Below are positions 6,795 to 47,942 of a stretch of DNA of 64,000 nt, piece by piece; within the stretch, counting starts at the first letter, position 1, and the number at the start of each line of letters is the position of its first letter. A program made the translations under genes and the position numbers. Origin of the DNA: an uncultured Selenomonadales bacterium. GTDB taxonomy: Bacteria > Bacillota > Negativicutes > Selenomonadales > Selenomonadaceae. Under the pieces are notes generated by a model. It was not told where the DNA came from. It saw nothing but the letters and a program-made list of their open reading frames with translations, and searched no databases. The DNA is taken from the NCBI GenBank assembly GCA_947307055.1, contig CAMZHX010000012.1, positions 1 to 64,000 on the forward strand, given 5' to 3'.

Positions 6795-9700
6795 TTTCCA
6801 GCCACTCCCCGATTTCCTCGCGAATTTTCTTGTAATCCGCCATTAAAACCTCATGATTCGCCAAAATTTTATCAGTCTCGTTATTTTTTGCGGCCAATTC
6901 CAGATTTTTAGCCTCTTCACTCAATTTTTCTGCGCCGATTGACATTGAAGTTGATTTTAGTGCGTGAATCAAAATTTGATAGTTTTTCCAGTCCTGCGCG
7001 GCGAATTTTTCTTGAATTTTGTCTGCTTTTTTGCCGTCCGCGAACGTTGTCAGCATTTGTATCATAAATTCTTTACTATCCATGCAATATTTCAAGCCGA
7101 CTTCCAAATTTATATCAGGACACATTTCCGCGAATTTTTTACGCTCTTTTTGGCTAAATTCGTCTTCGCCGACGCTTTCTTCTGTTTTTTCCTCGATTTT
7201 TTCTTCCAGAACGACTTTTTTATCCTCTTCGCTCTCGAATTTTATCATTTCGGGCGGTAAATGCCGTTCCAATATCCCTTCAAGCTCGGAAACTTCTATT
7301 GGTTTGCTCAAATAATCGTCGAATCCCTCGCGCAAATAAATTTCTCGCATTCCCGCTATCGCGCTCGCTGTCAGCATTACTACTATAGTTTTTTCGCTCA
7401 AAATCTTTTCTGCACGCATTTTTTTCAAAGTTTCGATACCATTCATGCCCGGCATCATATTATCTAGGAAAATTATATGGTAAAAATTCTTTTTTGCGAG
7501 CTCAATTCCCTCTTGACCGCTGTCGGCTAAGTCGGGAACAATCAAATTTCGCTTCAAGAGTCCTGTTATAACTTTTAAATTCATGTCGTTATCGTCGACA
7601 GCCAAAACTTTTGCGCCCGCCGCCGTCAAATATTTTTTCTCTGAATTTTTCGCGTGATTGTTATTTTTCTTGATTAAAAAGTCGCCTAAAGCTGTCCTAT
7701 CAATAATTTTTTGGCTCAAAACGAACGAAAACTCCGAACCTTTGCCATATTCGCTTGAAACTTCCAATTTGCTGCCCATCATCGTTAAAAGTTTCTGCAC
7801 AATCGATATTCCAAGCCCTGTACCCTCGATATTGCGATTTTTTTCCTCGTCGAGCCGCTGAAATGATAAAAATAGCTTGTCAATATCCTCTTCGCGAATT
7901 CCTATGCCCGTATCGCTGATTTTTACTTCCAAAATAAATGTGTCCGTGTCGATTTCTTTTCCGCTCATTTTCAACGTCACTGAGCCTTTATGTGTGTATT
8001 TTACCGCGTTCGTTAGCAAATTCGTTATTATTTGACGCAATCTAACATCATCGCCATATAAACTTCTCGGCAAAGTCGAAGATATTTCCGTTTTGAACTC
8101 CAAGCCCTTTTTTTTCGCCCGTTCGACCGTCATATTTACCAAATCGTTTATTAAATTCCCCATTTCGTAGCGCACGGGCACAATTTCCATTTTCCCGTCC
8201 TCGATTTTTGAAAAATCTAATATCGAATTGATTAAACTAAGCAAAGTTCGTCCCGCGCTCTGAATATTTCCCGCATAATCTAATATTTCTGGCGTTTTAC
8301 TCTCGCGCAAAATCATTTCGTTCATGCCGAGCACTGCATTTATTGGCGTCCTTATTTCGTGGCTCATTTGCGCTAAAAATTGCGATTTCGCCTTATTTGC
8401 CGCCGTTGCCGTGTCAGATGCTATTTTTAATTGCTGATTTACCGAATTTTGCCACCTCAATAGCCGATTTATCAGCGAACCCATTATCGCGACGCATATT
8501 GATAATAAAATTACAAAAAGTCCGCCCAATAACGTAATATGGCCGTAAATATTCCACAAATTATTCGCAACTATCACCGTAAATCCCGACGTTTTATTTT
8601 TTTTCGACAAACACGCTACCGAATTGTCCGCGTAATCTGTCAAAGTCATTACTTCGTTGCCGCCGTAATAAACTTTTGCGTATTCCGTGCTCGAAATTTC
8701 CGTCATATGGCGCATCGACAGCTGATAATTGCTGTTCGGGTGATTTATTATCATTCCGTTTTTATCGACCAGAAAAGCATAACCATTTTTGCTGTAACTT
8801 TCGCCTAAAACTTCGGTCAATTTGTCAATATAAAAATCTATGGCGAAAATCCCCAAAAAATCGCCGTTTTCCCCGTAAACCATTTGCGAAAGCGTCACGC
8901 AATACAAGCCCGTTTGCGCGTCGTAATATGGTGACGAGACGCTAAATCCGTCCTCAGATTGCTCCGTTTCAATATACCACGGCCGCTTATCAACATGCCA
9001 ATTCGGGTCGGTCGATTCCCAACCATTATTCATTATTACGGAATGTTCTTTATAGGGATTGGCCATGTAGCAAACCGAAATTTCCGGATAATTTTTAGCT
9101 AAATCGTCCAAAAATTTCACTGCAGATTGATAATCGTCCATAATTTTAGGATTTTCGCTGATTATGTTGGCGAACATGCCCAAAATACTTTTTTGACGCT
9201 CAACCCACATTGAAACTTGATGTTCGTAGGCGTCAAGCTCGCGATTCATTTTGGTATCGCCCCAACTTATCGTCGTATTAAAACACATTCCAAACGCACA
9301 AATCATCGCCAAAATCAGCACAGAAATTATTCCAATTCGAGAATAGCGACTGACTTTTGACAATTCTTTGTCCCGAAATTGTATTGCCGACGAAATTTTT
9401 TTGTCATTTGATACGATATTCGAGAACGAAAATAAATTGTCGAGCATATCCGAGAGTTTTAAGGCTGATTCTCGAACTTCTGCGGCTTTTTCTGTCGGAT
9501 TTGATTCGGAATGCATTGTTTCTACGCTTGCGGCGGTCAAAATTTTATGCAATGGGTCTCGCAATTCCCTTGAAAGTCGCGATAAAAATTCTTCCTTCAC
9601 GCGCAAAGCATTTTCCGCCATTAAGCCATTTTTCATCGCGTTGAGATATAAAACGATTATCGCCAATATCATTATCAGACTTAAAAGCGTCGCGAATATT

Positions 9701-10566
9701 ATTTGAATATAACTTTCCCTGTAAAATGCCCAATTATTAACGCTCAAAATCATATACCAGCCGTTATTTGTCTCATTGCTAAAAATTGTATGTTCGCCGT
9801 CGTCCATTTGCGCCGTAAAGCTCTCGCGGTGATTCGATTTCATGACGCGATTCAAAATTTCCTCGTATTCGGGCAATTTGTTTGAAACTTTCTGCCCGAC
9901 AAGATTCATGTCGGTGTAGCCAATTATCATGCCGGTTTTCGTCACAATCAGCGCATTTCTATTGCCTAGCTCGCCCATGCGCATTATCAAATATTGCACT
10001 TCCGAAAAATTAAAATCCAACGCGACGACAATATTGCTATCGGGCAAAGCCTTCGACATCGTATAACACATTATGCCGCTCATCGCGTCGATATATGGTT
10101 CGCTGACGTAAATTTTGTCCGGATTTTCGAGCGCACCTTTATACCAAAGCCTTTCCTGCGCGTGATACTCCGCCGGCATATCAAAATCCGGAATTATCGA
10201 CCAATCTTTTCCCGCGACATAAACATTAAAGCAGACGCCGCCCGTTAAATTTCTCTGCTCCCTTTTGCGCTTGTAGAAAAAACTTTTGAGTTCTTCTTGA
10301 GACGCGCCCGACTTTATCAGCCGTTCAGCCTCCATTGCCATTCGCGCCGTTGCACCCTCTGCGGTTTGGAGTGCCCCTTGAAAGTCCGAGCGAATTACTT
10401 CCAGTTGCATTCGCCCGATTTCTTCCGTTTGATTCGAGGTTATTTGGTACATTAGGCGGACGTTCATCGCTATCACGATTAAAAATATCAGCGTGATTCC
10501 GATTATTATCGCGAAGTCTGAACGTCTTCCCTGTTTGAGTATTTGCCAATTCTGAAATATTTTCAT
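6787..10566 (-). CDS. giant two-Cache hybrid histidine kinase with a pseudo-HisKA
   Basis: 1259 residues, first gene of the signalling operon, with ribosome site GGGGGTGAG before the ATG. Order: membrane segment (about 18-38), a Cache-type sensor (about 40-285), a membrane segment, a helical segment at about 320-390 that mimics HisKA but reads LSRELRDPL with R333 in place of the catalytic His, another membrane segment (about 405-425), a second Cache sensor, a membrane segment, true HisKA with H736 (MSHEIRTP), HATPase (GTGLGISI), receiver with D1035 (LDNMMP) and HPT with H1201 (IHALKST). It looks like an internal duplication in which the first kinase core lost its ATPase and His. Cache domains usually bind small molecules such as amino or carboxylic acids. 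Confidence 0.9.
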   Translation of the reverse strand: MKIFQNWQILKQGRRSDFAIIIGITLIFLIVIAMNVRLMYQITSNQTEEIGRMQLEVIRSDFQGALQTAEGATARMAMEAERLIKSGASQEELKSFFYKRKREQRNLTGGVCFNVYVAGKDWSIIPDFDMPAEYHAQERLWYKGALENPDKIYVSEPYIDAMSGIMCYTMSKALPDSNIVVALDFNFSEVQYLIMRMGELGNRNALIVTKTGMIIGYTDMNLVGQKVSNKLPEYEEILNRVMKSNHRESFTAQMDDGEHTIFSNETNNGWYMILSVNNWAFYRESYIQIIFATLLSLIMILAIIVLYLNAMKNGLMAENALRVKEEFLSRLSRELRDPLHKILTAASVETMHSESNPTEKAAEVRESALKLSDMLDNLFSFSNIVSNDKKISSAIQFRDKELSKVSRYSRIGIISVLILAMICAFGMCFNTTISWGDTKMNRELDAYEHQVSMWVERQKSILGMFANIISENPKIMDDYQSAVKFLDDLAKNYPEISVCYMANPYKEHSVIMNNGWESTDPNWHVDKRPWYIETEQSEDGFSVSSPYYDAQTGLYCVTLSQMVYGENGDFLGIFAIDFYIDKLTEVLGESYSKNGYAFLVDKNGMIINHPNSNYQLSMRHMTEISSTEYAKVYYGGNEVMTLTDYADNSVACLSKKNKTSGFTVIVANNLWNIYGHITLLGGLFVILLSICVAIMGSLINRLLRWQNSVNQQLKIASDTATAANKAKSQFLAQMSHEIRTPINAVLGMNEMILRESKTPEILDYAGNIQSAGRTLLSLINSILDFSKIEDGKMEIVPVRYEMGNLINDLVNMTVERAKKKGLEFKTEISSTLPRSLYGDDVRLRQIITNLLTNAVKYTHKGSVTLKMSGKEIDTDTFILEVKISDTGIGIREEDIDKLFLSFQRLDEEKNRNIEGTGLGISIVQKLLTMMGSKLEVSSEYGKGSEFSFVLSQKIIDRTALGDFLIKKNNNHAKNSEKKYLTAAGAKVLAVDDNDMNLKVITGLLKRNLIVPDLADSGQEGIELAKKNFYHIIFLDNMMPGMNGIETLKKMRAEKILSEKTIVVMLTASAIAGMREIYLREGFDDYLSKPIEVSELEGILERHLPPEMIKFESEEDKKVVLEEKIEEKTEESVGEDEFSQKERKKFAEMCPDINLEVGLKYCMDSKEFMIQMLTTFADGKKADKIQEKFAAQDWKNYQILIHALKSTSMSIGAEKLSEEAKNLELAAKNNETDKILANHEVLMADYKKIREEIGEWLENE

Positions 10567-10584
10567 CAGCTCACCCCCGCGAAG

Positions 10585-10615
10585 ATTATAGTTTAATCGC
10601 GCTACCTCGAATCAA
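10585..10615 (-). promoter_or_regulatory. possible promoter of the signalling operon
   Basis: On the minus strand a perfect TATAAT (10585-10590) lies 19 bases after TTGATT (10610-10615). The spacer is long, so the -35 assignment is tentative. It lies just before the ribosome site of the giant kinase. Confidence 0.45.
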
Positions 10616-10643
10616 TCAGTTTTACAAGAATTTTAATCACTTT

Positions 10644-11240
10644 TTATTTGAAAAGCAACATATAAATTGCGACCGCCGTAAAATATGGACCATAGGCGAA
10701 GTAACTGCCGCGATTTTTTTTCTCCAGCAAAATCATCGTCAAGGCCGACACGCCGCCTAAAATCGTCCCGTAAAGTACGACGTTAAGCAATTTTATCGCG
10801 CCTAACCATATGCCTAGCCCGAAAATCAATTTGACATCGCCGCCGCCCAATGAACCTTTAGAGATTACAGAGAGCAAGAAAAAAATCACGCCGCCGATTG
10901 CCGCCGCTATTAAATTTTCTTCCAGCCTCGAACTTTGATAGGCATAAGCCGCGCCGAGCATCGCAAATGGTATCGTCATTGCGTCGAACAGCATGTATTG
11001 TTCAAAGTCCGTCGCCGTCATCAGCACGAGAAAAAATATCGCCGCCATTATCCACAAGTCGTCCGTCAAAATGAAACTCAACAGCGCAATGAATAATAGT
11101 AGCTTGCGAAATCGCGAGCGTCTCGAAATTTCTTCAGGGAATGTTAGTTCGGAGCAATTCAAATACAATCTGTCAATCCACAGCGAGCCAGCAAAAGTCA
11201 AAATCGCCGCGCCCAAAACTTTTATAATTACGTCCAACAT
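10644..11240 (-). CDS. A24-family prepilin peptidase lacking the methylase domain
   Basis: A 198-residue polytopic membrane protein with about six hydrophobic segments. It carries the two aspartate motifs of type IV prepilin peptidases: TDFEQYML before an IP segment, and GGGDVKLIFGLG (the GxGD motif). The N-terminal cytosolic methyltransferase domain with its CxxC pairs, present in PilD/ComC (about 250 residues), is absent, which leaves a cleavage-only form as in TadV/CpaA-like enzymes. It would cleave leader peptides of pilin-like proteins at the membrane. No pilin genes are nearby, but comEC at the far end of the window is compatible with competence pili elsewhere in the genome. It is monocistronic behind its own promoter. 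Confidence 0.85.
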   Translation of the reverse strand: MLDVIIKVLGAAILTFAGSLWIDRLYLNCSELTFPEEISRRSRFRKLLLFIALLSFILTDDLWIMAAIFFLVLMTATDFEQYMLFDAMTIPFAMLGAAYAYQSSRLEENLIAAAIGGVIFFLLSVISKGSLGGGDVKLIFGLGIWLGAIKLLNVVLYGTILGGVSALTMILLEKKNRGSYFAYGPYFTAVAIYMLLFK

Positions 11241-11268
11241 CTTGACTGCTCCTCAAAAAGTTTCGTCC

Positions 11269-11296
11269 ATTATACCAAAAAAATATCCCCTGCCAA
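11269..11296 (-). promoter_or_regulatory. prepilin peptidase promoter inside the htpG terminator
   Basis: Minus strand TTGGCA (11291-11296), 16-base spacer, TATAAT (11269-11274). The -35 box lies in the 3' part of the htpG terminator hairpin and the spacer contains its U tract. Confidence 0.65.
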
Positions 11297-11309
11297 AGTC
11301 GACAGGAGA
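11286..11309 (-). terminator. htpG rho-independent terminator
   Basis: Arms 11286-11294 and 11301-11309 pair over 9 base pairs as minus-strand RNA, including two G-U wobbles, with a 6-base loop. A run of seven U follows (11277-11283). Confidence 0.75.
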
Positions 11310-11313
11310 TTTT

Positions 11314-11350
11314 TTAATTCGTAATGCGTAATTCGCAATGCGTAATTTTA
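11314..11350. repeat. heptad repeat, TAATGCG type, single arm
   Basis: Five degenerate 7-base units (TAATTCG, TAATGCG, TAATTCG, CAATGCG, TAATTTT) sit between the htpG stop and its terminator and just touch the stop codon. It belongs to the same family as copies at 25184, 30873 and 55162. Confidence 0.8.
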
Positions 11351-13249
11351 TTTTGTCAGCAGGTCGGTTACTTTGTTAGCGAGGTCGGCGGGGTTGTCCG
11401 GCATTACGCCTTCAATCAGCAATGCGAGTGAATAAAGCGTCGTGCATAAATCTTTGAACGATTGCGAGTCTTTGCCTTGCGCGTGGAGGCTCTCCAATTT
11501 TTTGAAGACTGCGTGATTCGGATTGAGTTCCAAAATTTGCGTCGCCTTGAATAGCGGATTATTCATTGCCGCGAAAGTTTTTTCCATTGTCAGCGAGGGG
11601 CCGCCCTCCCCCGTCACCAAACATACTGCGCTAGATTTAAGCCGCGAAGTCAATCGAACTTCCTTGACCGCGTCGCCGATTGCCTCTTTTACGTCCTTCA
11701 GCAAATCTTCGTTGCTCTTGGCAATCTCTTCGACTTCGGCCTTGACTTTTTGCGATTCGGCGTCATCAAGCTCGAAATTCTCTTTGGTTATCGATTGGAA
11801 ATGTTTTTCGGCGTATTCGTGCAGAACTTCAATCGTGAACTCGTCGACAGGGTCAGTCAAATAAATTACCTCAAGCCCGCGCTCGCGTAGAAGTTCCATT
11901 TGCGGAAGGGCTTCAATCGCTGCGGAATCTTTGCCCGCCGCCGTGTAAATATTTTTCTGGAAGTCGGGCATTCTCTCGACGTACTCGGCAAGCGTAGAAA
12001 ATTTCCCGTCGCGCGAAGTCTGGAATATAAGCAAATCTTTCAAGGCGTCCTTTAACTTCGTATCGAACATGCTGTTATACACGCCGATTTTTATCGACTT
12101 GCCAAATTGCGTCCAAAATTCCTCGTACTTAGCGCGCTCGTCCTTGAGCATTTTGGAGAGTTGCTTTGAAACATTTTTCTCCAGAGCCTTGCCGATAACT
12201 TTGACCTCGACGCTTTGCTGAAGGAGTTCGCGAGAAATATTCAGCGGCAAGTCGGGCGAATCAACTAAGCCCTTCATGAAGCGCAACCAATCCGGCAGGA
12301 AATCTTTGCACTTGTCCATAATGAAGACGTGACGCGAATAAAGTTGCAAGCCCGCTTCATAGTCGGAGTAGTAAAGATTTTGCGGGGCGTGCTTAGGAAT
12401 GCAAAGGAGCGCGGTATATTCGGTCGTGCCTTCCGCCTTGACATGGAAAATTTCCAGCGGAGCTTCCCACTCATGCAGTTGCTGCTTGAAAAATTCGTCG
12501 TAGTCCTCGCGCGTTATCTCGGACTTATTGCGCGTCCAAAGCGGCTTCATTGAATTGACTGTACGAATTTCAATCGACAGCTCATCTTCGGGCTTATTCT
12601 TGACCTCGAAATTCATTTTAATTGGGTAGCGCACAAAATCCGAATACTTTTTAACGAGCCGCTCCAATTCGTAAACGTCAGTGAAATTATATTCGTCGCC
12701 GCCGCAGAATTCCTTCTTGAGGTGCAGGACGATGATTGTGCCTTGCGAATCTTTTTGCCAGTCTTCGATTTCGTATTCGCCCGCGCCGTCGGAAGTCCAT
12801 TTGACAGCGGAATCAGTACCGGCCTTGCGCGTTATGAGTTCGACTTTATCGGCGACAATGAACGCGGAATAAAAACCTACGCCGAATTGCCCAATGAGTT
12901 CCTGCGCGGCGGCGTTGGAAGATTCGCGGATTTTGTCGAGAAAATCTTTGGTGCCCGATTTGGCGATTGTGCCGATATTGTTTATAACTTCATCGCGGTT
13001 CATGCCGATGCCGTTATCGGAAATCGTTATGGTTTTGGTGTTGGCGTCGGGGAGAATGAAAATTTCTGGCTCGAAGTCGTCAACGAGCGTGGCGTTTGTC
13101 AGTAGCTCAATGCGGAGTTTGTCGAGCGCGTCGCTTGCGTTTGAAATGAGTTCGCGCAGGAAAATTTCTTTGTTGGTGTAAATCGAATTGACGACCAGGT
13201 CGAGCAAGCGTTTAGTCTCGGCTTGGAACTGTAACTTTTCTACAGGCAT
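11348..13249 (-). CDS. htpG: Hsp90-family chaperone HtpG
   Basis: A 633-residue cytosolic ATP-dependent chaperone. The N-terminal GHKL ATPase shows ELISNASDALDKLR, DNGIGMNRDEV and GQFGVGFYSAF. The middle and C-terminal dimerisation domains are full length. I start it at the ATG at 13249 (MPVEKLQF), because GGAGGT at 13258-13263 is spaced 8 bases before it; the TTG at 13264 lies within that ribosome site. It is 66 bases downstream of prs, with a terminator-like hairpin between them, so expression may depend on read-through or on a weak promoter near the prs stop. There is no CIRCE element. Confidence 0.97.
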   Translation of the reverse strand: MPVEKLQFQAETKRLLDLVVNSIYTNKEIFLRELISNASDALDKLRIELLTNATLVDDFEPEIFILPDANTKTITISDNGIGMNRDEVINNIGTIAKSGTKDFLDKIRESSNAAAQELIGQFGVGFYSAFIVADKVELITRKAGTDSAVKWTSDGAGEYEIEDWQKDSQGTIIVLHLKKEFCGGDEYNFTDVYELERLVKKYSDFVRYPIKMNFEVKNKPEDELSIEIRTVNSMKPLWTRNKSEITREDYDEFFKQQLHEWEAPLEIFHVKAEGTTEYTALLCIPKHAPQNLYYSDYEAGLQLYSRHVFIMDKCKDFLPDWLRFMKGLVDSPDLPLNISRELLQQSVEVKVIGKALEKNVSKQLSKMLKDERAKYEEFWTQFGKSIKIGVYNSMFDTKLKDALKDLLIFQTSRDGKFSTLAEYVERMPDFQKNIYTAAGKDSAAIEALPQMELLRERGLEVIYLTDPVDEFTIEVLHEYAEKHFQSITKENFELDDAESQKVKAEVEEIAKSNEDLLKDVKEAIGDAVKEVRLTSRLKSSAVCLVTGEGGPSLTMEKTFAAMNNPLFKATQILELNPNHAVFKKLESLHAQGKDSQSFKDLCTTLYSLALLIEGVMPDNPADLANKVTDLLTK

Positions 13250-38008: not shown

Positions 38009-38659
38009 TTAACCGATATTGACGGCGTGAACGATTTTATAACCGCGTTGTTGGAGGATATTTTTTACTTCGTCTGAGGCGTCATGTTCATCAAGGCGCA
38101 CGACGAGTTCATAGCGGTTATCATTTTGCTTGCAAGTTATGAAGCTGTCGATATTAATGCCTTTATCGGCGAAAATTTTAGTGATGTCAGCCATAACGCC
38201 GACTTTGTTATCGACTTCGAGAGTCAAGCGGGTTTTACCGCCGCCGGGTAGCCCCATAACCTCAATAAACGTTTTAAGAATATCGGTTGCGGTGATGATA
38301 CCGACGAGCGCGCCGACATCAGAGATAACGGGCAAGCCGCCGACTTTATTTTGATACATGATAAGGGCGGCTTCTTCGACGGTTGCGCCTTCGTTTACGG
38401 TGATAACTTTGTCGTGCATTATGTCTTTGACGGAAATTTTATCGAGAAGGGAGCGAATCTCGAATTTTGAAAGAGTAGTGGCGGGGCTGGGCGCGACGCG
38501 CATAATATCGCGGTCGCTGAAGTATCCGACGAGTTTTCCGCCGTCTACGACGAGCATTCTATGGAATTTATGTTTTTTCATGAGCCTATCGGCCTGTTGA
38601 ATGGTTGCATCGCTTGTCACGGACACGGGGTGCTTAGTCATTCTTGCTGCAACGAACAT
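38009..38659 (-). CDS. CBS-pair and ACT domain protein (AcuB-like)
   Basis: 216 residues from the ATG at 38659, 7 bases after GGAGG; the ATG two codons earlier sits against the ribosome site. Two CBS motifs (about 1-65, with VVDGGKLVGYFSDRDIM, and about 75-135, with KVGGLPVISDVGALVGIITATDIL) form a Bateman module that usually binds AMP, ATP or SAM. An ACT domain follows (about 142-216: LTLEVDNKVGVMADITKIFADKGINI), a fold that often binds amino acids. It ends the liv-led transcription unit, so sensing branched-chain amino acids is a possibility. No enzymatic domain is present. Confidence 0.88.
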   Translation of the reverse strand: MFVAARMTKHPVSVTSDATIQQADRLMKKHKFHRMLVVDGGKLVGYFSDRDIMRVAPSPATTLSKFEIRSLLDKISVKDIMHDKVITVNEGATVEEAALIMYQNKVGGLPVISDVGALVGIITATDILKTFIEVMGLPGGGKTRLTLEVDNKVGVMADITKIFADKGINIDSFITCKQNDNRYELVVRLDEHDASDEVKNILQQRGYKIVHAVNIG

Positions 38660-38671
38660 TTTCATTCCTCC

Positions 38672-39700
38672 TTACTTAAAAATGGTTTGAACTTCTTCCG
38701 GAGTGAGTGTTGAGAGGTGCGCAAGCTTATTTCTGGCGTCGCGATAGATTTTTAAGTTTTCCCAATCATTTTGAGGGAGATTTTGTCCGCCGAGCATAGA
38801 ATATAGGTCGCCGAGCTCTGCTTCATCGGGATTTAGGATATTTTTGCCGGAATTCATTTCAAAAGGCAAAAGTTTTTCGATTAGAGGCTGATATTTTTTG
38901 ACAAAATCGCGGCGGAAAATTTCTAGGAGTGGGAAAATCAATTTAAGTTGTGTCGTCCAGATAGCGCGGTCGATTTCTTCGCGAGATTTATTTTCTAGGA
39001 ACTTTTGCGGGTTTTTGAGGAAATCTGCGCCGCATTTTATACATTCCGCGCCTTTTTCTACGTCTAAACCGGTAGTATTTGAAACTAATTCGGCGAGATA
39101 GCGTTTTAAGAACTTATCGCCCTTGCCGAACTCGGCCGCGATAAAAATATTGAACGCGTAGCAGTCGTAATCGCTGATTTCGTCGGCGCAGTAGAAAATT
39201 TCAACGTCAGTTCTGCCCGTCGAGGCAAAATCGTCGTCAGTTTCGAGTAAAAATATCCCTTTAGAGCGTCCGCGCAGGAATTTATGATAATCGGCGATGA
39301 AATTGAACCAAATTTGAGCTTGAGTTGTTGAGGCGTCGCGAATCCACAGGCAAATATCGTTTAAAGTGATGTCGTCGCGTTCAGCGAGGAATTTAACGTG
39401 AGCATTTTGCCCAAAGGGAATGAATTCGGACTTAATATCGTCGCTGCAAAAGTTTTCAAAGACAAAAGTTGCGGGTTCGGGCGAAATATCAGCCGCGTTG
39501 ACCTCGTGAACGGCTTTAATGCCGCCGAAATTTTTATTTAAGAACTCGTGGAGGATTTCGCGCATATCTTCGAGCCAAGGCGTTTCTTTCGACAGACAAA
39601 TCACGGAACTTTTGCCACTTGCGAGGGCGTTAGCGACTTTATCTAAAAATTTTCTTGCGCCGGTAATTTGACGCCACCAAATTTCGCTAGTTTCAATCAT
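38672..39700 (-). CDS. uncharacterised ATPase partner with HEPN-like Rx4H motif
   Basis: 342 residues, not recognised. It opens SEIWWRQITGARKFLDKVAN, then GKSSVICLSKETPWLEDM, which has the shape of a first strand and turn but is not a full P-loop. An alpha/beta half (1-190) is followed by an all-helical half (about 200-342). Near the C-terminus DARNKLAHL gives R323-x4-H328, the spacing of HEPN ribonuclease motifs (R-x4-6-H), within a helical region as HEPN would need. It begins 3 bases after the ATPase stop (TAA, AAA, ATG), and its ribosome site lies in the ATPase end, so the two are made together. A toxin or RNase effector is one hypothesis; an adaptor is another. Confidence 0.6.
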   Translation of the reverse strand: MIETSEIWWRQITGARKFLDKVANALASGKSSVICLSKETPWLEDMREILHEFLNKNFGGIKAVHEVNAADISPEPATFVFENFCSDDIKSEFIPFGQNAHVKFLAERDDITLNDICLWIRDASTTQAQIWFNFIADYHKFLRGRSKGIFLLETDDDFASTGRTDVEIFYCADEISDYDCYAFNIFIAAEFGKGDKFLKRYLAELVSNTTGLDVEKGAECIKCGADFLKNPQKFLENKSREEIDRAIWTTQLKLIFPLLEIFRRDFVKKYQPLIEKLLPFEMNSGKNILNPDEAELGDLYSMLGGQNLPQNDWENLKIYRDARNKLAHLSTLTPEEVQTIFK

Positions 39701-39703
39701 TTT

Positions 39704-42700
39704 TTAAGTCCTCGAAAAATCCGACATTATTTCCGCTTCGATTTCGTCGCTAGTGCCCATCATGTTGAGAAATCTTTGACGAACGAAGAGATATTTGCCC
39801 TTAGCGACTTCGCGCAGGATATTTAGTTCGCAAAGTTCCTTCAAAAGTGCTTCGACCTGCTCAGAATTTTGCGGAATGAGTTCCTCAATCCCGAATTCCT
39901 CAGCGGTATCGAGAATATCTTTAGCGGAGTAACCTTCGATGCTGTCGTCGTTGTGATAACGCCACGCCATCAAATGCGCAATGACATAATAAAATTTATC
40001 GTCGCCCAAGCGGAGCGTCATATTGATTTTGTTTTTGATTTCCTCGTTGAAAGATTCTTCGCCGAGCACGCTTTGAATATGCCCTTCCTTAATTTCGTAA
40101 ATGGGCGAATTAGTTTCCTTGTAGGAGGCGTAATCGGATTTGGAGAGAGCCTCAATCAGTCGGGCGCAGTAAAGTTGAATCAAGCCCGGAAAATAATTTG
40201 TCGTTTCGAGAATCATCATCGCGAGGGAATCGGCATTTTCATTGTCGGAAAAATAAAGTCCGAGACAGCGGAGCGGTTCTTTAAGAAGTCTGGTAGCGTC
40301 TTCCAAGTCGAAGGGCTTAACGACGAGCGACGGCAATTTAGAAATCTGATTGTTATTGCCGAGAGCCTCATCTCTGTAGAATCGGACGACATCGCGCAAG
40401 CCCGCCATAACGAATTTGAAGCGGCTACCGTTATGGAGTTGGTTTTGAATGTCGATGAGTTCGAGGACGGGCTTAAAATCAATGTCGCGGCAATCTTTGA
40501 TAAAGTCGTCGGCCTCGTCGAGCGCGAGCATAAAGTGCGGGATTTTATAGGGCGTGTCACTTGCGAGGCGTTTTTTGATAGCGGCGGCGAGTTTCGTCCA
40601 ATCGTAGGTATCGGCAAAAGTTTCGTCGAAGAATTCATCTGCGCGGAGGGCCTGACTAATTTTGAGTGCGGCGGCGGCGCAGTTGCATTTGTCGAGGCTG
40701 ACGAGGATAGCGCGGTCGTTATTTTCGTTGCGGTCGAGACTAGCGCAAGCCATTTTAAGGAGCGCGGTTTTGCCGAGTTGACGCCCGCCGTAAACGATAT
40801 TAACGTCGTCGAAATCGAGGATACGGCGCATTTCCTTTTCGCGCCCCATGAAAATTTCGGGCGGAATCGGGACGTTGGGATTAAAGACGTAAGGTTGGCA
40901 CGCGGCGAACGGCATAATCAGCGACATCAAAATTTTGTTAATCTGCATGTCGTCATAATTCTTGACGAGGTACATCATCAAAACCCTATCGACGACCGCG
41001 AAAATTTTCGTGATGCCCGATTCGGCCTTTATCTTGCGAGCGAGACTGCGACGGGTCGGCAATTCAAGCGCGTAATCGAGAAGTACCAACGTATTTTCAG
41101 CGTTGCCAATCTCTTTGAAGCGCGCGATAAGCCCTTCAGCGTTGTAAGTACCGAAAATGCACGTGACGCGGAAGCCGTAAATTTCAGCATTGGAGCCGAA
41201 CGCGGCTATGGGGTGATTGTAGTTGGAAGTTTGGACGTTGCGCGGCGCAATGAGTTTGACTTTGTAATTTATAGCGTTTTTGCTAATCGCGCCGGTTTTG
41301 CTGACGCTCTCGACCTTGAAACCGAGCGTGTTGAGGAGTTTAGCGAGCCTATCTTCGCCGACGTCGCCATTTTGCGGAAAGCCGTTAGGAATCCAGTTGT
41401 CGACCAGAATTTCGCCGCCCTTGATAGCTTTAGAGGTTGCGGCTTTGGAAAACTTCTGATTCTTGCCGACCAGATTTTTAAATGACTCGCCGCTTTTGCG
41501 CACGCGATTATAATAAATTTCGTAATCTTCCAGGAAGTGCTGAAGATGCGTTTGCCCTTCAGACGATTCTGGCTCGTCATAGAGTTTGCCCTCGCCGAGA
41601 CGATTTATTAAACCTTGCGCAACCGTGTAATTTCTGCGGTCAATCATTTTCTGAATCTGCGCGACGGTATTTTTCAACGCGGGCGAGTCTTCATCTTCGT
41701 CGGTTTTGCGGCAGTAGTTTTTAATCCCGCGCTCCAAATTTTTCTCTACCAATTCGGCATACTTTGCGGCGTCCTCTTTGGTCTTATTTTCCCAATAATT
41801 TTTGACGCGGAAGAACACGCCAATATTATCATTGCCCTGCGCGAACTCAAAGCAACGGTCGATGAGTTTCAGAATTTTTTCTTTGGAGTTTTCGGGCGCG
41901 TTGTCGAATTGTCCGTAACTTTGCGCGAGTTCAAGGAAGCCAAAAAATTTTTTCTTATCGTTGAGGGCGATACGTTTAGCGGCGTCGGCACTTTCGCGCA
42001 ACTTATATTTATTTTTAGTTATGATAGATTCCTCGCCGATGTCCTCAAGGTAATCGTCGATGAGTTTAGCCGAGCCGAAGTCCCAACCTTTTTTCTCGAA
42101 GATGATTTCCATACGTTCGGCGAAAGTAGGCAAATCTGCGCGGGAATGCGTAACGATTCTGCCGGCAATGGAATTATTTGTGCCGTCGAGCGTATTGAAA
42201 TTGAAGTTCGGGAAATAATTTTCGTCCAAAAGAACTTTATCGCCGCGAAGAAAATCTATGTAGAAATATTTATACTGTTCGGGCTTGAAGTTCCCTTCCA
42301 ACTTGTCAGCAATTTCCTGCAAAGTTTCATGCAAGACGGCGGCGGCAGGAATTTTTTTGCCTGTCAAAATCGCTTGAGCCTTCTTGATATTGTCGATTAA
42401 ATTTTTGCGAATCCTCTTGTATTCCTCCGAGCCGATGTCCGATTTCAACGGCGCGCTCTCCTCAAAGCAACTCACGCGCTCGCAAAGAATTTCAATCGCC
42501 CTCTTGAGCAAAGTATTTACGTGATTGCGGAGCTCGCCGACCAGCGACATATTTTTTTTGCGGCGAATATTTTTGCCGGCCTGTTCCCACGCGTCGTCGA
42601 TAATCGTATCGAATTTGAACTTGTCGATATTCTCGACGTTCAAGCTGATATCGTCGTCGCGCATGTATTCTTCCTGCAGATAATTCTTCAAGTTATGCAG

Positions 42701-45019
42701 AATATCTTCATCAAAAATTTCTTCGGCGATGTGCTCCAAGTAATTTGTCAGCTCGCTGCCCTTGAACAAAATTTTGCGCGTCTCGATGAAGCGGGGATTG
42801 TTAGCGCGTTCTCTGGGGTTGTTGATTATGTCGAGGCAAGTTTGCGCCTCTTGACGAAGTTTGGCGATTTTGATTTCGATTTGCGCACGATTCTTGACGC
42901 GATAATCGGCGTAATAATCCGCGCCGTTTTTAGCCTTTTCCTTGAAGTTCATCAGCGCGAAAATCAAATCGGCGAGCGGCGAATTTTCTTCGACGACCTC
43001 GAAATTTTTGACAATCCCGTGCAAAACTTTCATATTATGGTCAAACTGCTTGTGATTGTAAAAAAATGTGCGTAACGTCGCGGCCGTCAAAAAGTTTTCG
43101 TCGGGATTATCGCTCTCGTTGAACAGCGAAATTATTTTGCCCGAATCGTAACTTATCGCCAAAAGCGGGTCGTTAATCGCGTAGGCCAGCTGATGATAAA
43201 GCGGAATATAATTTTCGTCCTGCGCGGTCAGAGCTTTGAGGTAAGCCGCCGCGCAATAGAATTTTTTAGCGGCAAGCATTTCGTTAAGCGGCTGCATTTC
43301 GTCGGTGATAGGCTCGTCGTCAAAAGTTTCGGCGGGAGTTTCAACGGCAGAAATTTTTTCGACAGGAGCCTCAACGACTGGAATTTTTTCAGCGGGAGCC
43401 TCAATGGCGGGAATTTCATCGTCGGGAGTTTCAGCGGCGGCAATGTCTTCGTCGAAAGCTCCGGACGCGATAATTTCTTCGACGACCTCGTCAGCATTGG
43501 TAAATTTGTCTTCAAAGAATTTGAGCGGAGTTTTTTTAGCATCGTCATCGGTCGACAATTTAACCCAAATTTTTTCGGGCACAATCGCTTCGTCCTCGCC
43601 GCGCAGATAAAATTTGTCTTCGTCAATCAGGTAGATATAATTCACCGTATCTTTCGGGAAATTTTCAGCCAAAGCCGTTTCGAGCGCGATGAAAATTTTC
43701 TCGGCATGTTGGAGAGTGAGCCCCGCCAAAATCACGCGCTGAAATGTTATATCGGTCGCGAGGTATGCCTTGAGGTTATCGAAAAAGTCGTTGCACTCGT
43801 CGAGATTCTCCCAGAAACAGCCAAGCCCCAAATCGCGCCCATTACGCCCCGAAAACTCTACGCGGAACGATTGCGCAAACAAAGCCTTCTTCTTGCGGTA
43901 GTTGCCGTGCTCGCGCTCGATTGCGTACAGGCGGAAATAAATCATACGCGCCAACGGCTTGCGAGCACCCTCGCCCAACAATAAAGTTTCGTCCGGCTCA
44001 ATCAACGGCTCTTTGCCAATGTTCTTGAAAAATTTCTTGAGCACTTCGCTTTTGAAAAAGTCGTAGCAACTCTGCGTCAAGCTGTAGAAATCGCCCATGT
44101 TCGCGAAGACGTACTTTTGAAAGTAGCCCTTATTGAACAAAAGTTGGGCGATAGCCTCGAAGGGCTCGCGCGGAAATTTATCCTCGACGGGGATAGCGCA
44201 TTTGGAGTAGCCGCCATTGTTCAGCGTCGTGAAAAGTACAAGCTTTATGCCGTTGGGATTTTCAAAGTCGCGCTTGAAACGCTTTGCAGTGATTTCGCGT
44301 TCGCGCCCGCAATCCTCAAAGGTAAAAGCCCTCTCGAACGGCGCAAAGTCATCGTCAGTCAATAGCGCGTCATTTTCGCGAACAATTTCTGCAAAGTCGA
44401 CAGTCTCAACAGGCGATTCGTCATCGAGTTCGGGCGGCTCAGGTTGTTCGCCGTCAAAAAGCAAATCGCCACCGAAAACCGCCTTCCCGATAAAGTCATC
44501 GTCAAAAGTTTCGCTTAGTGCCTTGCCGAGCACAAATTTTTTCCCGAAGTCTTTTTCCTCCGCCGTCTCGATGAATTTTGCATAGGGTTCGACCTTAGCT
44601 TGAAGTTTCGAGTCACGAGACTTTTTGCCTAGTAGCGGTTTCAATTTCTTTTGATACTTGACCAAAATTTTTTGAACGTCGGAACTTTTCGCGTTAAGAG
44701 TCAGAAATTTTTCAGCGCGCTCGAAAATGCTCGCCGTGATTAGCCGATTTTCTTCCGCGTTTAAAGCTTTCTCGAACTCCGGAAAAGTTCGCGGCTTATC
44801 GCTGTCAAAAAGTTGCTCGTAAAGCTCCGAGCACTTATCGATTGATTCTTCCCATTCGGAAAACTCTTCGCTAAAACCCTTCAAAGATAAAGCTTCCGGA
44901 AATTTTTCCTGATTGATAACCTTTTCAAAGATATCAAAATATTCTTTGAGTGATTCGCCAAGCTCGCGCAAGTTATTTAAAATGCGTCGCGCCTCATAGA
45001 TTTTTTCCAGCCTCTCCAT
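39704..45019 (-). CDS. 1771-residue helical-repeat P-loop ATPase, undescribed family
   Basis: I do not recognise a named family. Layout from the ATG at 45019: helical and coiled-coil 1-150; acidic linker; an alpha/beta region about 215-520; a Pro/Glu/Ala linker of imperfect ten-residue repeats at about 526-566; long TPR-like helices about 570-1190; an alpha/beta module about 1205-1385 (opening DVGEDRLAKLLNTLGFKVES), possibly nuclease-like; then an Orc/STAND-like ATPase with the FMGREKEM box, Walker A GGRQLGKT (K1417), Walker B LALDEADD (D1501-E1502) and sensor segment VMAGLRDVVRF; the end is winged-helix-like. The GGAGG ribosome site lies inside the last codons of livF. Sensor ATPase size and layout recall STAND-type defence proteins; that is inference. 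Confidence 0.65.
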   Translation of the reverse strand: MERLEKIYEARRILNNLRELGESLKEYFDIFEKVINQEKFPEALSLKGFSEEFSEWEESIDKCSELYEQLFDSDKPRTFPEFEKALNAEENRLITASIFERAEKFLTLNAKSSDVQKILVKYQKKLKPLLGKKSRDSKLQAKVEPYAKFIETAEEKDFGKKFVLGKALSETFDDDFIGKAVFGGDLLFDGEQPEPPELDDESPVETVDFAEIVRENDALLTDDDFAPFERAFTFEDCGREREITAKRFKRDFENPNGIKLVLFTTLNNGGYSKCAIPVEDKFPREPFEAIAQLLFNKGYFQKYVFANMGDFYSLTQSCYDFFKSEVLKKFFKNIGKEPLIEPDETLLLGEGARKPLARMIYFRLYAIEREHGNYRKKKALFAQSFRVEFSGRNGRDLGLGCFWENLDECNDFFDNLKAYLATDITFQRVILAGLTLQHAEKIFIALETALAENFPKDTVNYIYLIDEDKFYLRGEDEAIVPEKIWVKLSTDDDAKKTPLKFFEDKFTNADEVVEEIIASGAFDEDIAAAETPDDEIPAIEAPAEKIPVVEAPVEKISAVETPAETFDDEPITDEMQPLNEMLAAKKFYCAAAYLKALTAQDENYIPLYHQLAYAINDPLLAISYDSGKIISLFNESDNPDENFLTAATLRTFFYNHKQFDHNMKVLHGIVKNFEVVEENSPLADLIFALMNFKEKAKNGADYYADYRVKNRAQIEIKIAKLRQEAQTCLDIINNPRERANNPRFIETRKILFKGSELTNYLEHIAEEIFDEDILHNLKNYLQEEYMRDDDISLNVENIDKFKFDTIIDDAWEQAGKNIRRKKNMSLVGELRNHVNTLLKRAIEILCERVSCFEESAPLKSDIGSEEYKRIRKNLIDNIKKAQAILTGKKIPAAAVLHETLQEIADKLEGNFKPEQYKYFYIDFLRGDKVLLDENYFPNFNFNTLDGTNNSIAGRIVTHSRADLPTFAERMEIIFEKKGWDFGSAKLIDDYLEDIGEESIITKNKYKLRESADAAKRIALNDKKKFFGFLELAQSYGQFDNAPENSKEKILKLIDRCFEFAQGNDNIGVFFRVKNYWENKTKEDAAKYAELVEKNLERGIKNYCRKTDEDEDSPALKNTVAQIQKMIDRRNYTVAQGLINRLGEGKLYDEPESSEGQTHLQHFLEDYEIYYNRVRKSGESFKNLVGKNQKFSKAATSKAIKGGEILVDNWIPNGFPQNGDVGEDRLAKLLNTLGFKVESVSKTGAISKNAINYKVKLIAPRNVQTSNYNHPIAAFGSNAEIYGFRVTCIFGTYNAEGLIARFKEIGNAENTLVLLDYALELPTRRSLARKIKAESGITKIFAVVDRVLMMYLVKNYDDMQINKILMSLIMPFAACQPYVFNPNVPIPPEIFMGREKEMRRILDFDDVNIVYGGRQLGKTALLKMACASLDRNENNDRAILVSLDKCNCAAAALKISQALRADEFFDETFADTYDWTKLAAAIKKRLASDTPYKIPHFMLALDEADDFIKDCRDIDFKPVLELIDIQNQLHNGSRFKFVMAGLRDVVRFYRDEALGNNNQISKLPSLVVKPFDLEDATRLLKEPLRCLGLYFSDNENADSLAMMILETTNYFPGLIQLYCARLIEALSKSDYASYKETNSPIYEIKEGHIQSVLGEESFNEEIKNKINMTLRLGDDKFYYVIAHLMAWRYHNDDSIEGYSAKDILDTAEEFGIEELIPQNSEQVEALLKELCELNILREVAKGKYLFVRQRFLNMMGTSDEIEAEIMSDFSRT

Positions 45020-45024
45020 ATAAA

Positions 45025-45735
45025 TCAACCTCCCAGATAGGCTTTGCGAATGTCCTCACTTGCAGCTAGTTCTTCAGCGTCGCCAGAAATCGTGATTCGC
45101 CCCGTCTCCAAAACATAAGCGCGATTTGCAATCGACAACGCCATATTTGCATTTTGTTCGACGAGCAAAACTGTTGTTCCTGTCTTATGTATGTCAGCGA
45201 TGATTGAAAAAATTTCGCGGATTAGGAGCGGCGCAAGTCCCATTGACGGTTCGTCTAGGAGCAAAAGTTTTGGTCGGCTCATAAGTGCGCGCCCCATTGC
45301 GAGCATTTGTTGTTCGCCGCCAGATAATGTTCCGGCAAGTTGCAATCTTCTTTCCTCAAGGCGCGGGAAGCGTCCGAAAACCATTTTGAAATCATTTTGA
45401 ATTTCGTCCTTATCCGAGCGCGTGAAGGCTCCCAGCTCTAAATTTTCTTGAACGGTCATTTCCGCGAAAATCCGCCGACCTTCGGGCACTTGCGAAATCC
45501 CTTCCCGAACAATTTTATGAGCCGGCACGCCCGCGATATTTTTGCCGAGAAAATTTATCTCGCCGGTCTTGGGCTTGAGTAGTCCCGAAATTGTTCGTAG
45601 CGTCGTCGATTTGCCCGCGCCATTCGCGCCAATCAACGTGACAATCTCGCCCTCCTCGACAGAAAGACTTATGCCCTTTATAGCGTGAATCGCGCCGTAG
45701 TAAACGTTGATGTCTTTGACCTCCAACATTGCCAT
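45025..45735 (-). CDS. livF: branched-chain amino acid ABC transporter ATPase LivF
   Basis: 236 residues, the second ATPase of the LIV-I type importer. Walker A IGANGAGKSTTLRT, signature LSGGEQQMLAMGRAL, Walker B LLLLDEPSMGLAP, H-loop VEQNA. It pairs with LivG on the LivHM permease. It is separated from livG by two foreign genes (an acetyltransferase and an exported HD protein) but remains in the same tight unit, with gaps of 4 bases. Its last codons contain the ribosome site of the giant ATPase gene. Confidence 0.95.
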   Translation of the reverse strand: MAMLEVKDINVYYGAIHAIKGISLSVEEGEIVTLIGANGAGKSTTLRTISGLLKPKTGEINFLGKNIAGVPAHKIVREGISQVPEGRRIFAEMTVQENLELGAFTRSDKDEIQNDFKMVFGRFPRLEERRLQLAGTLSGGEQQMLAMGRALMSRPKLLLLDEPSMGLAPLLIREIFSIIADIHKTGTTVLLVEQNANMALSIANRAYVLETGRITISGDAEELAASEDIRKAYLGG

Positions 45736-45739
45736 AAAA

Positions 45740-46972
45740 TCACCCCTTTATAAATTCAAATGTCACAGGAAATTGATGCTTGCGCGTGGCGTCTTTGCAA
45801 TAGCGAGAATACATGCGGGAAATTTTTTTCTTGTCAACTTTGGAGTAGTCGCCGACAATTTGAATGTGCGCTTCGACTGGAAATTTTTTCATGGTATCGA
45901 GTTCGCCGAGCCGCTCCTCAATGCAATTCTGCGTAGACAAAGGAAAGCTCTTGCCGTTCAAAACTTTAAAGATTTCGCGAACCGAATTACTTTTGCGATT
46001 GTAAGCGCAGGACATAGAAAGATTGCCTTCGCCCGCCATGTACATGCGCCCGTAGCCGCTTTGGTCAATGCCGCTAAGCAAAGAAGTCCTGACGCCCGTA
46101 TCAACATCGAGGACAAAAATTTTCGCCTTCTCAATTTCCGCCATCCAATTTTTCGCCGGCGAGACGTAAGAATCAAAGTCGACTAAAATGGCTTCGCCGC
46201 CTTGAGTGTAGGGGAATTGAGCTGCCTCGCGGTTGGCGTCGCCTAATCTCAAAGCCGCAATCGTCGCGGCACTCTGCGCTAAAGTTTCGCGGTTAAATTT
46301 GTAAACGTCGACGAGTTGCTTTGGATTTTTTTCGGAGGGCTTTTGATAAGTTTCGCCGTTCGTCCAAGTCGATTTGTCAAAATAAATCGGCGCGGCGGGA
46401 TATTTTTCGTTGTAAAGCTCGACGGCGGCATCAATGCGGTTGAAACAATCCGTCCATTGCTCGTGGCTAGTCAGGTCGCGGACGCCCGAACAACTTTTGC
46501 TATGCCCCATGCAGTCAAGCGCAATCATATCGACGTTGACGCCCAAAGCCGTAATCGCCTCGCGATTTTCCAGAACATGAATCGCCGAGTTCAACGAATG
46601 GTCTTTGCGTAGCGCGTTGCCGTCTGTGTATGTCTTGAAAGTCCCGCCGTCCATGCCCGTATCATGCATAAACGCCGCCACTTGCAATTCAATGCGGTCA
46701 ATCGACGAGTAATAAGGATTCCCTAAGCCTGCGCGCTCGACGGCGTCGGCGGCCTCTTGCGATTTGATTGCGACAAGTGCCGCATGATGTTCGCCGTGAT
46801 CGCTGTAAGTCCTAAGCTCCGCGAATTCAAAGGCGCGACCTTTAGCATTGGCGTAGTACTCCGCCGAAAGATTTTTAGCCGCTTCTGTTGCCGTTTCAAA
46901 GTCAGCTGCCGAGACGACCTGCGCAAGTAAAAATATCCACGCGAACAGCAACGAACCTAAAAATTTTCTCAT
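45740..46972 (-). CDS. exported HD-domain protein
   Basis: 410 residues with a signal peptide (about 1-22). Residues about 55-240 carry an HD-superfamily metal site: SDHGEHHAALVA (H59, H62, H63), AAFMHDTGMDGG (H103-D104) and KDHSLNSAIHVL (H125, H132). HD proteins are usually intracellular phosphohydrolases, so secretion is notable. The remaining about 170 residues include an FPYTQGGEAILVDFDSYV segment and a conserved-looking Cys pair (SCAYNRKSNS, NCIEERLGEL), without recognised fold. It lies inside the liv operon between livF and the acetyltransferase gene, 4 bases from each. The link to amino acid uptake is unknown. Confidence 0.75.
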   Translation of the reverse strand: MRKFLGSLLFAWIFLLAQVVSAADFETATEAAKNLSAEYYANAKGRAFEFAELRTYSDHGEHHAALVAIKSQEAADAVERAGLGNPYYSSIDRIELQVAAFMHDTGMDGGTFKTYTDGNALRKDHSLNSAIHVLENREAITALGVNVDMIALDCMGHSKSCSGVRDLTSHEQWTDCFNRIDAAVELYNEKYPAAPIYFDKSTWTNGETYQKPSEKNPKQLVDVYKFNRETLAQSAATIAALRLGDANREAAQFPYTQGGEAILVDFDSYVSPAKNWMAEIEKAKIFVLDVDTGVRTSLLSGIDQSGYGRMYMAGEGNLSMSCAYNRKSNSVREIFKVLNGKSFPLSTQNCIEERLGELDTMKKFPVEAHIQIVGDYSKVDKKKISRMYSRYCKDATRKHQFPVTFEFIKG

Positions 46973-46976
46973 AAAC

Positions 46977-47942
46977 TCAACTCCCGATAATTTTCGCTAC
47001 ATATTGAGATAAATTTTTCATAGTAGAATAAGTTTCATCATGTAGTGAGATAAATTTGTCAATGTCATTAAAATACTTGAAGTTGTCGTGGATTTTGTCA
47101 AGGTTCCAATCCCACCACTTAATCCTCAATAACGCCTCGATAACGTCGGGCGGAAAACGATACTTGATAATTTGCGCGGGGTTGCCGCCAACAATTGCAT
47201 AAGGTGGCACGTTTTTAACAACAACGCTGTCCGAAGCAATGACCGCGCCGTCGCCAATAACTAACGGCTTGTTTGGATTTGTACACTTCAAAATACAACC
47301 GCGACCTATCCAAACATCATTGCCAATTAAAATTTTGCACGTGCCCTGCGGCGGCATGAATTTTGACTCTCTGCGACCGTTCAGACTGAAATACCATGCT
47401 GGAGCAGAGCTGACATTTTTATAATTATGATCTGCATTTCTTCCCAATTCAAAGACTATATTTCTGGCAATAGGGCAGAATTTTTTTATAGACACCTCAC
47501 CCTTACCTTCAATCTTCGCAGAATTTATGTAACTTTTCATACCCATTGAAAGCTTTATAAGTTTATCTTTCATAGTGTAAACTTGTGGGTAAATCGTCTG
47601 AATGCACAACTTAAATACTGCTTTTTCCAAGATACCATAAGCAATGCCTTCGATAATTAAACGAGAAAAGTCTAAATTCGGTACCATAAAAACTGCGCCA
47701 TCGATAATTTTACTGCTTGGAAAACCAATTTTCTCAAGCATTTTCATACGTTTATAAAAAAGCTTTTTAGAAGAAATTATTGCGAGGTCAAAATTAAAAA
47801 CATTTTCACCCCCCCCTACTCTACTTGTATCATCAATGCAGGCGACGATTTCTAAATTGCCGCGTTTAACTTCTGCGTCATAAAACGGCTTGAGTTTAGG
47901 ATAAAGGGCGTCTGTGCCGAAGATTAGAGTTTTGTATGCCAT
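46977..47942 (-). CDS. hexapeptide-repeat acetyltransferase with N-terminal Rossmann-like domain
   Basis: 321 residues. The first about 80 resemble the NAD- or sugar-binding half of PglD/CapD-like proteins (TLIFGTDALYPKLKPFYD then VACIDD). From about residue 140 a left-handed beta-helix of the CatB/xenobiotic acetyltransferase type follows: ILIGNDVWIGRGCILK, IGDGAVIASDSVVVKNVP and PYAIVGGNPAQIIKYRFP, with the C-terminal IKWWDWNLDKI that closes CatB-like enzymes. An O- or N-acetylated surface sugar is the probable product. Base use is less regular and more A+T rich than its neighbours, suggesting later acquisition into the liv operon. Confidence 0.82.
   Translation of the reverse strand: MAYKTLIFGTDALYPKLKPFYDAEVKRGNLEIVACIDDTSRVGGGENVFNFDLAIISSKKLFYKRMKMLEKIGFPSSKIIDGAVFMVPNLDFSRLIIEGIAYGILEKAVFKLCIQTIYPQVYTMKDKLIKLSMGMKSYINSAKIEGKGEVSIKKFCPIARNIVFELGRNADHNYKNVSSAPAWYFSLNGRRESKFMPPQGTCKILIGNDVWIGRGCILKCTNPNKPLVIGDGAVIASDSVVVKNVPPYAIVGGNPAQIIKYRFPPDVIEALLRIKWWDWNLDKIHDNFKYFNDIDKFISLHDETYSTMKNLSQYVAKIIGS

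Follow-up and report, generated by a model that had tools for sequence, protein, structure and literature searches.

The window analysed here is a stretch of 64,000 nucleotides from an uncultured Selenomonadales bacterium (assembly GCA_947307055.1, contig CAMZHX010000012.1, here C12; the genome comprises 2.46 Mb in 56 contigs). Its minus strand carries two coupled genes, here named BIG and SMALL, which encode a giant STAND-like ATPase and a smaller partner with an HEPN-type C terminus. The reading frame of BIG starts at a TTG codon, and an in-frame ATG at codon 4 (base 45019) gives the protein of 1771 residues of the initial annotation; residues are numbered from the TTG, with the Walker lysine being K1420 (K1417 from the ATG). 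Three bases separate the stop codon of BIG from the ATG of SMALL. The two coupled open reading frames (ORFs) are confirmed as first described, and the motifs reported for them (GGRQLGKT, LALDEADD, MGREKEM, and ARNKLAH with R323 and H328) are all present in the translations. The window's own genome holds a single match to BIG. The features of the two genes, identified by locus (L) number where a relative is cited, are as follows.

39704 to 45028, minus strand: BIG, large STAND-like ATPase, ORF of 1774 amino acids from TTG 45028, stop included
43259 to 45028, minus strand: BIG residues 1 to 590, fast-diverging N-terminal region and putative sensor, 43% identical to L034
41459 to 43231, minus strand: BIG residues 600 to 1190, middle region of intermediate conservation in the alignment, with no Pfam domain over cut-off
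40859 to 41338, minus strand: BIG residues ~1231 to 1390, conserved pre-ATPase module, alpha/beta by eye, columns conserved across several phyla (alignment A2)
40169 to 40852, minus strand: BIG residues ~1393 to 1620, P-loop ATPase domain, from Pfam matches below cut-off and a PDB profile match
40766 to 40789, minus strand: Walker A motif GGRQLGKT, BIG residues 1414 to 1421, GGRQLGK[ST] in 14/14 BIG sequences
40508 to 40522, minus strand: Walker B motif LDEAD, BIG residues 1503 to 1507, DE in 14/14
38672 to 39700, minus strand: SMALL, partner protein, ORF of 342 amino acids, stop included
39071 to 39700, minus strand: SMALL residues 1 to 210, alpha/beta N-terminal domain without Walker motifs, from AlphaFold2 (AF2) secondary structure
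38675 to 38989, minus strand: SMALL residues 238 to 342, HEPN-type domain, from hhalign against HEPN_Swt1 and from AF2
38717 to 38734, minus strand: Rx4H motif RNKLAH, SMALL R323 to H328, R and H invariant in 26/26

The C terminus of SMALL is very probably an HEPN domain, judging by its invariant arginine and histidine and by its likeness to the HEPN_Swt1 profile, with which the AF2 model is consistent. In the C-terminal alignment of 26 SMALL sequences, which includes very distant relatives, these two residues are the sole invariant columns, within domain borders that were set by a pattern requiring the motif and that none of the supplied sequences (0/26) failed. The hhalign comparison of the SMALL C-terminal alignment A5 with seven members of HEPN_Swt1 (PF18731) returned a probability of 93.7% (E 2e-7), against 0.1% and 0.2% for controls with an unrelated helical alignment, which bears out the HEPN-type partner proposed in the initial annotation. 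Single sequences remain below the Pfam cut-off for this family (L059, E 0.0093; L065, E 0.017; L064, E 0.03; L058, E 0.061), as does the one match, at E 0.2, among 19 SMALL members. The window SMALL has no Pfam or NCBIfam match and its best PADLOC hit, at E 0.03, is at chance level, while the 19 members match no family of PADLOC-DB 2.0.0 (best E 0.012, to RTasHEPN). In a search of the PDB the HEPN profile aligned over RNxxAH with the CRISPR-associated protein 8y75 at E 0.34; its top match there, a designed helical repeat protein (E 0.001), was dismissed as chance, as no stretch passes alone. From the single sequence AF2 gave a poor model (pLDDT 40.5), and with four sequences it reached a pLDDT of 67 and a pTM of 0.39. 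The latter model is best in the C-terminal part, with block means of 65 to 87 for residues 231 to 320 and helices at 240 to 269, 271 to 277, 296 to 303, 310 to 327, and 334 to 341.

From the order of its strands in the AF2 model, the N terminus of SMALL could plausibly be a Walker-less STAND (iSTAND) domain. Against this idea, profile comparison with the BIG ATPase gave 0.2% for the window-type set and 0.9% for the distant set; no PDB sequence matches this region. A "GKS" in the same region that might have made SMALL an ATPase is not conserved as a P-loop, and that assignment was rejected.

BIG carries its P-loop ATPase at the C-terminal end. The Pfam families AAA_22 (residues 1411 to 1546), ATPase_2 (1393 to 1456), and AAA_14 all match below cut-off, and in the PDB the C-terminal profile matched 33 residues of the STAND protein PH0952 (6mfv) with E 8e-4. 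In a wider alignment GGRxxGK[ST] is found in 21/22 BIG sequences, with L053 lacking that region. Besides the Walker motifs the domain shows a GR..E box and the sequence NYxPGLIQ, which we take to resemble the GxP motif of STAND proteins. No conserved nuclease motif was seen by eye in the alignment of the pre-ATPase module, and neither the helical repeats nor the winged-helix-like end proposed for BIG found a counterpart among Pfam repeat families (E ≤ 1) or winged helix-turn-helix models. BIG has no match in NCBIfam or PADLOC-DB 2.0.0 and none over cut-off in Pfam, in line with the first view that neither protein is recognizable as a described family.

The three parts of BIG diverge at different rates. 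Between the window and L034 the identity is 43, 75, and 87% over residues 1 to 590, 600 to 1190, and 1200 to 1774, and between L038 and L042 it is 52, 74, and 89% for the N-terminal, middle, and C-terminal parts; the set compared comprised ten BIG sequences of the genus and L043. The livF-like flanking gene at the homologous sites L034 to L042 is 91 to 97% identical to that of the window. Domain swapping was considered as the source of the N-terminal divergence and rejected, since the N-terminal and C-terminal trees share one grouping: the window, L034, L033, and L036 cluster in both (support of 0.992 and 1.000, respectively). Because the N-terminal tree keeps this grouping, the pattern is read as fast divergence. 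As a separate observation, L037 and L039 are 54% identical in the middle part, 67% in the N-terminal part, and 85% in the C-terminal part, which hints at local recombination.

Within the taxonomic family the two genes travel together. SMALL was found in 61/189 genomes searched and the core of BIG, counted from strong scores only, in 62/189, with both present in 59; weak rows (E 5e-6 or worse) were set aside because they resemble generic P-loops. In 51 of these 59 genomes the two genes are direct neighbours on the same strand, BIG preceding SMALL. Three of the other eight have both genes on one contig at wider distances (614, 702, and 2003 bases) and five have them on different contigs. In the three genomes with BIG only (G050, G083, and G100) the matches run to the contig end, and the two with SMALL only have it near a contig end (G099) or as a weak match in a frame of 163 amino acids (G115).

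Beyond the family, SMALL occurs in 5/398 genomes of a phylum sample, its own included, and BIG homologues lie upstream of it at L058, L059, L060, and L061. Among 72,556 plasmid records 25 hold relatives of BIG (27 when the query was the Salinibacter copy) and 2 hold relatives of SMALL; the BIG-family plasmids come from Pseudomonadota, Cyanobacteriota, Actinomycetota, and Rhodothermota, and their homologues have unrelated flanks. Scans of a viral collection with A2 and A3 found two contigs with a pair, one of which was also found with A4, and SMALL as a lone query had no relative there. A distant set of 17 loci found through the ATPase (15 hand-picked plasmid loci and the 2 viral-collection contigs) showed a HEPN-bearing SMALL after BIG in 9 (L062, L064 to L068, L070, L071, and L137). 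The predicted coupling of the two genes therefore holds within the taxonomic family (59/62 genomes, 51/59 adjacent) but is not universal in other phyla (9/17 loci).

Several distant relatives carry other domains on one or both proteins. At L062 (1693 to 11463), L067, L068, and L071 the giant protein starts with pPIWI_RE domains over Pfam cut-offs and the HEPN partner is kept; the pPIWI_RE RNaseH domain is present in all four fusions, and X and MID as well in three. At L063 (5077 to 11946, Brasilonema plasmid pBOCT2) sigma-70 regions 1.2, 2, 3, and 4, over Pfam cut-offs, are fused to the ATPase core; the next gene is annotated as helicase, and the search for a HEPN partner at this locus found none. 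On the side of SMALL, the relatives at L062 (11556 to 13133) and L067 have an AAA_33 domain C-terminal to HEPN over cut-off, the one at L066 has it below cut-off, and the L068 relative looks similar by eye. This part presumably resembles polynucleotide kinase, and a kinase-type domain after HEPN hints at RNA-end processing that may be coupled to cleavage. In addition, L062, L067, and L068 have another large gene (~1130 amino acids) upstream of the pPIWI_RE fusion, of which 567 amino acids at L062 have no Pfam match. The betaproteobacterial BIG homologues at L138 and L139 overlap, in place of SMALL, a gene of 922 to 933 amino acids (9409 to 12177 at L138, 9433 to 12234 at L139), which at L139 is followed by a helicase-like gene (by eye).

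In the window the pair is part of a tight same-strand run that proceeds from a livF-like gene (end 45025) through BIG and SMALL to a CBS/ACT gene (start 38665), the name livF-like being given here from the ABC_tran match and the place in the liv run.

45025 to 45735, minus strand: livF-like ABC ATPase, upstream flank, ABC_tran E 3.7e-33
38009 to 38665, minus strand: CBS-CBS-ACT protein, downstream flank, CBS E 7.8e-32 and ACT E 2e-9

Some of the close relatives L034 to L042 have one more ORF beside the pair (L033 and L035 share a contig and were counted once), and four mapped copies of the genus sit at other places (L049, L051, L052, and L053). Both flanking genes are kept and the pair is absent in 3/7 regions from pair-less genomes, where the space between the flanks measures 24 bases at L105, holds a small ORF within about 0.5 kb at L109, and is taken up by one other ORF at L104; the remaining four regions are rearranged or unclear. 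Flanks without the pair between them are read as gain or loss of the pair. Two pair-less genomes carry, beside the livF-like gene, genes of 308 and 303 amino acids with similar starts (L103, 2886 to 3812; L104, 14589 to 15500), as if the site took other cargo. The liv run of the window also holds two extra genes at 45740 to 47942, of which one is weakly HD-like (E 0.046) and the other has a weak hexapeptide match. The number of such genes varies among relatives, the second being 51 to 65% identical and present in up to two copies, while the liv genes are more than 90% identical.

Defence-type genes were sought around 24 loci that lie outside the livF site by scanning 109 flanking ORFs (chosen from 132, with 23 dropped for size or as unlikely genes) with PADLOC models at E ≤ 1e-8. 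In total 166 models matched, each in one or two members among the 25 listed; many models overlap on one protein, and 166 is therefore not a gene count. The matches were placed by searching the 24 genomes or records with five models (DruE, AbiEi, PDC-S37, type IIG, and MkoA). A full-length DruE match with one internal stop lies directly upstream of BIG at L070, AbiEi lies 2.2 kb from BIG at L065, and PDC-S37 lies 2.5 kb from SMALL at L064. HerA and a DNA methylase stand alongside at L059, and a Cas_GSU0054-like gene (Pfam, below cut-off) at L060, which is taken to be the one neighbour member matching Cas56g at E 2.7e-138. A type IIG enzyme is found 1.8 kb from SMALL at L053, which was left out of the count of placed defence-type neighbours (5/24 loci). 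The DruE, type IIG, and PDC-S37 models also match in 7, 4, and 5 of 14 control genomes, respectively. The neighbours of these relatives give moderate support to the defence role first proposed; the window copy itself sits in a metabolic operon.

Taken together, these features suggest a two-protein immune module, in which the STAND-like sensor ATPase BIG would unleash the HEPN RNase SMALL on infection; the probability of this reading is put at about 0.57. The variable N-terminal half of BIG would recognize a signal of infection, and the C-terminal P-loop ATPase, evident in the sequence, would switch state with ATP. SMALL would be the effector, kept inactive until BIG is triggered, and its HEPN-type domain, recognized by profile and motif, would then cut RNA by means of R323 and H328. 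Translation would halt and the phage could not multiply, giving abortive infection. Among relatives the ATPase core is constant and the N-terminal part exchangeable (pPIWI_RE domains, a sigma-70 factor, or unassigned sequence), with a HEPN partner that is common yet replaceable. The overall interpretation of the initial annotation is supported in the parts open to sequence analysis, toxicity and defence being putative.

A number of observations weigh against an immune module. Amino acid transport genes make up the run around the window pair, the same site is occupied in 9/9 mapped close relatives (L034 to L042), and this stable livF address is unlike typical islands. SMALL is present in 52/66 genomes of the same genus, which is high for a defence gene, and some copies look broken or partial: in G182 BIG is in two pieces with stops and SMALL is short, in G517 a stop falls inside the SMALL match, and in G068 the L053 frame lacks the ATPase core and SMALL is in two matched pieces. 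No single SMALL sequence examined passes the Pfam cut-off for HEPN, the HEPN partner is missing in 8/17 distant loci (L063, L069, L135, L136, and L138 to L141), and none of 50,697 phage records matches. The neighbour evidence has its own weaknesses. The PADLOC scan does not name the matched proteins, and the two DruE members at L070 are halves of one split gene. G068, the genome of L053 and a member of the window's genus, holds 22 matches to a type IIG restriction-methylase model, unusually many and some of them fragments, and MkoA was rejected as evidence of defence because it is generic, with matches in 13/14 control genomes. The control set, 109 ORFs drawn at random from 256 in the window, at nine livF-site loci, and at six pair-less loci, comes from other taxa than the test set and also matched five models (mad3, mad8, AriA, HEC-01A, and LeoBC) in up to 15/109 members, taken to be ABC ATPases within that set.

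An unlikely alternative is a toxin-antitoxin or post-segregational module with a selfish or stress role, in which SMALL would be an RNase toxin and BIG its ATP-dependent restrainer, with no recognition of phage. The adjacency of BIG to an HEPN-type partner fits such a module, and the relevant passages of the HEPN review (PMC3710099) interpret dyads of HEPN and MNT, or of HEPN and ParA-like ATPases, as toxin-antitoxin. By general knowledge, however, a restrainer of 1774 amino acids with a fast-evolving N terminus far exceeds the typical size of an antitoxin; moreover, the pPIWI_RE and sigma-70 fusions point to recognition, and the BIG core occurs without the HEPN partner in the 8/17 distant loci listed above. 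Because the pair sits between the livF-like and CBS/ACT genes, a housekeeping stress or nutrient module linked to the supply of branched-chain amino acids was also considered, in which HEPN would trim RNA in starvation. Tight same-strand spacing in the window, the site shared by 9/9 mapped close relatives, and the presence of SMALL in 52/66 same-genus genomes speak for it. This reading is nevertheless improbable, given the four mapped same-genus loci elsewhere (L049, L051, L052, and L053), plasmid homologues with unrelated flanks, the absence of the pair from sites with both flanks kept, and an N-terminal divergence of BIG that far exceeds that of the flanks.

It is more doubtful still that the pair belongs to a restriction system, BREX-related or other, as a degraded or satellite component in need of a methylase, PglZ, or helicase in trans. 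According to passages of the BREX paper (PMC12839542), HEPN can occur on BREX-related DUF499 ATPases, and iSTANDs of the BrxB type are small partners that lack Walker motifs; helicases or methylases adjoin some relatives (L059, L063, and L139). BIG and SMALL, however, have no match to BREX-named families in Pfam, PADLOC, or NCBIfam, no methylase, PglZ, or helicase appears among the eight flanking proteins by Pfam, and the N terminus of SMALL reaches only 0.2% against the BIG ATPase profile. The slightest chance is given to a noncatalytic HEPN-like domain that would bind nucleic acid or protein, with BIG as a remodeller or transcription regulator. HEPN domains judged inactive do exist, as passages of the HEPN review relate (PMC3710099), and one BIG relative carries a complete sigma-70 factor as a fusion, yet binding alone would hardly demand an arginine and a histidine that are invariant in 26/26 sequences across very distant relatives.

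NTPase switches with HEPN effectors are a known kind of system, within which the BIG/SMALL family and its fusions appear new. SMALL is like the HEPN RNases (HEPN_Swt1, PF18731; reviewed in PMC3710099) in its Rx4H motif, its predicted helical C-terminal domain, and its 93.7% profile match, and differs from them in its added alpha/beta N terminus, its pairing with a separate giant ATPase, and its scores below the Pfam cut-off. With STAND ATPases such as PH0952 (6mfv), a comparison to which NLR/Avs-like immune ATPases also belong, BIG shares the P-loop with its GR..E box, the Walker A and B motifs, and the GxP-like sequence NYxPGLIQ, the PH0952 match covering only 33 residues. Unlike in these proteins, the ATPase of BIG is C-terminal and preceded by about 1390 residues, its effector would be a separate protein, and PADLOC has no match for it. 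Passages of the HEPN review mention fusions of HEPN with STAND and with DUF499 ATPases (PMC3710099), and those of the BREX paper treat iSTAND partners and DUF499 ATPases of BREX-related systems (PMC12839542), which are STAND/ORC-type, sometimes HEPN-linked, and alike in the idea of a small Walker-less partner. In contrast, the window pair has no DUF499 match, and Pfam finds no PglZ, methylase, or helicase among its eight flanking proteins. For pPIWI-RE, passages of the source paper describe standalone genes and a three-gene neighbourhood with REase and DinG (PMC3702460). Four relatives of BIG share the pPIWI_RE RNaseH domain with these systems, three of them also X and MID, whereas their module is fused to a BIG-type ATPase followed by HEPN, and the window pair has no PIWI domains. 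The literature listings and passages searched contain no description of the BIG-SMALL pair or of a pPIWI_RE-ATPase-HEPN fusion.

As a tentative extension of the immune-module reading, held at less than even odds, the family may be a modular immune chassis with a conserved ATPase core, a swappable recognition end, and a swappable output that is often an HEPN RNase and sometimes kinase fused. The recognition end could be a fast-evolving protein sensor, a pPIWI_RE module that binds guides, or a sigma-70 factor watching RNA polymerase. Where the end is pPIWI_RE, a guide would direct the recognition of nucleic acid, and the ATPase switch would relay it to the cleavage of RNA; such a route from Argonaute to HEPN was not found in the literature passages searched. 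If these readings are true, the BIG-type ATPase family, found in Selenomonadales genomes and on plasmids of four phyla, would be a hub of defence with swapped recognition and killing parts. The pair would offer a testable case of a sensor ATPase that commands a separate HEPN RNase, and the family may explain the role of some pPIWI_RE Argonaute-like proteins.

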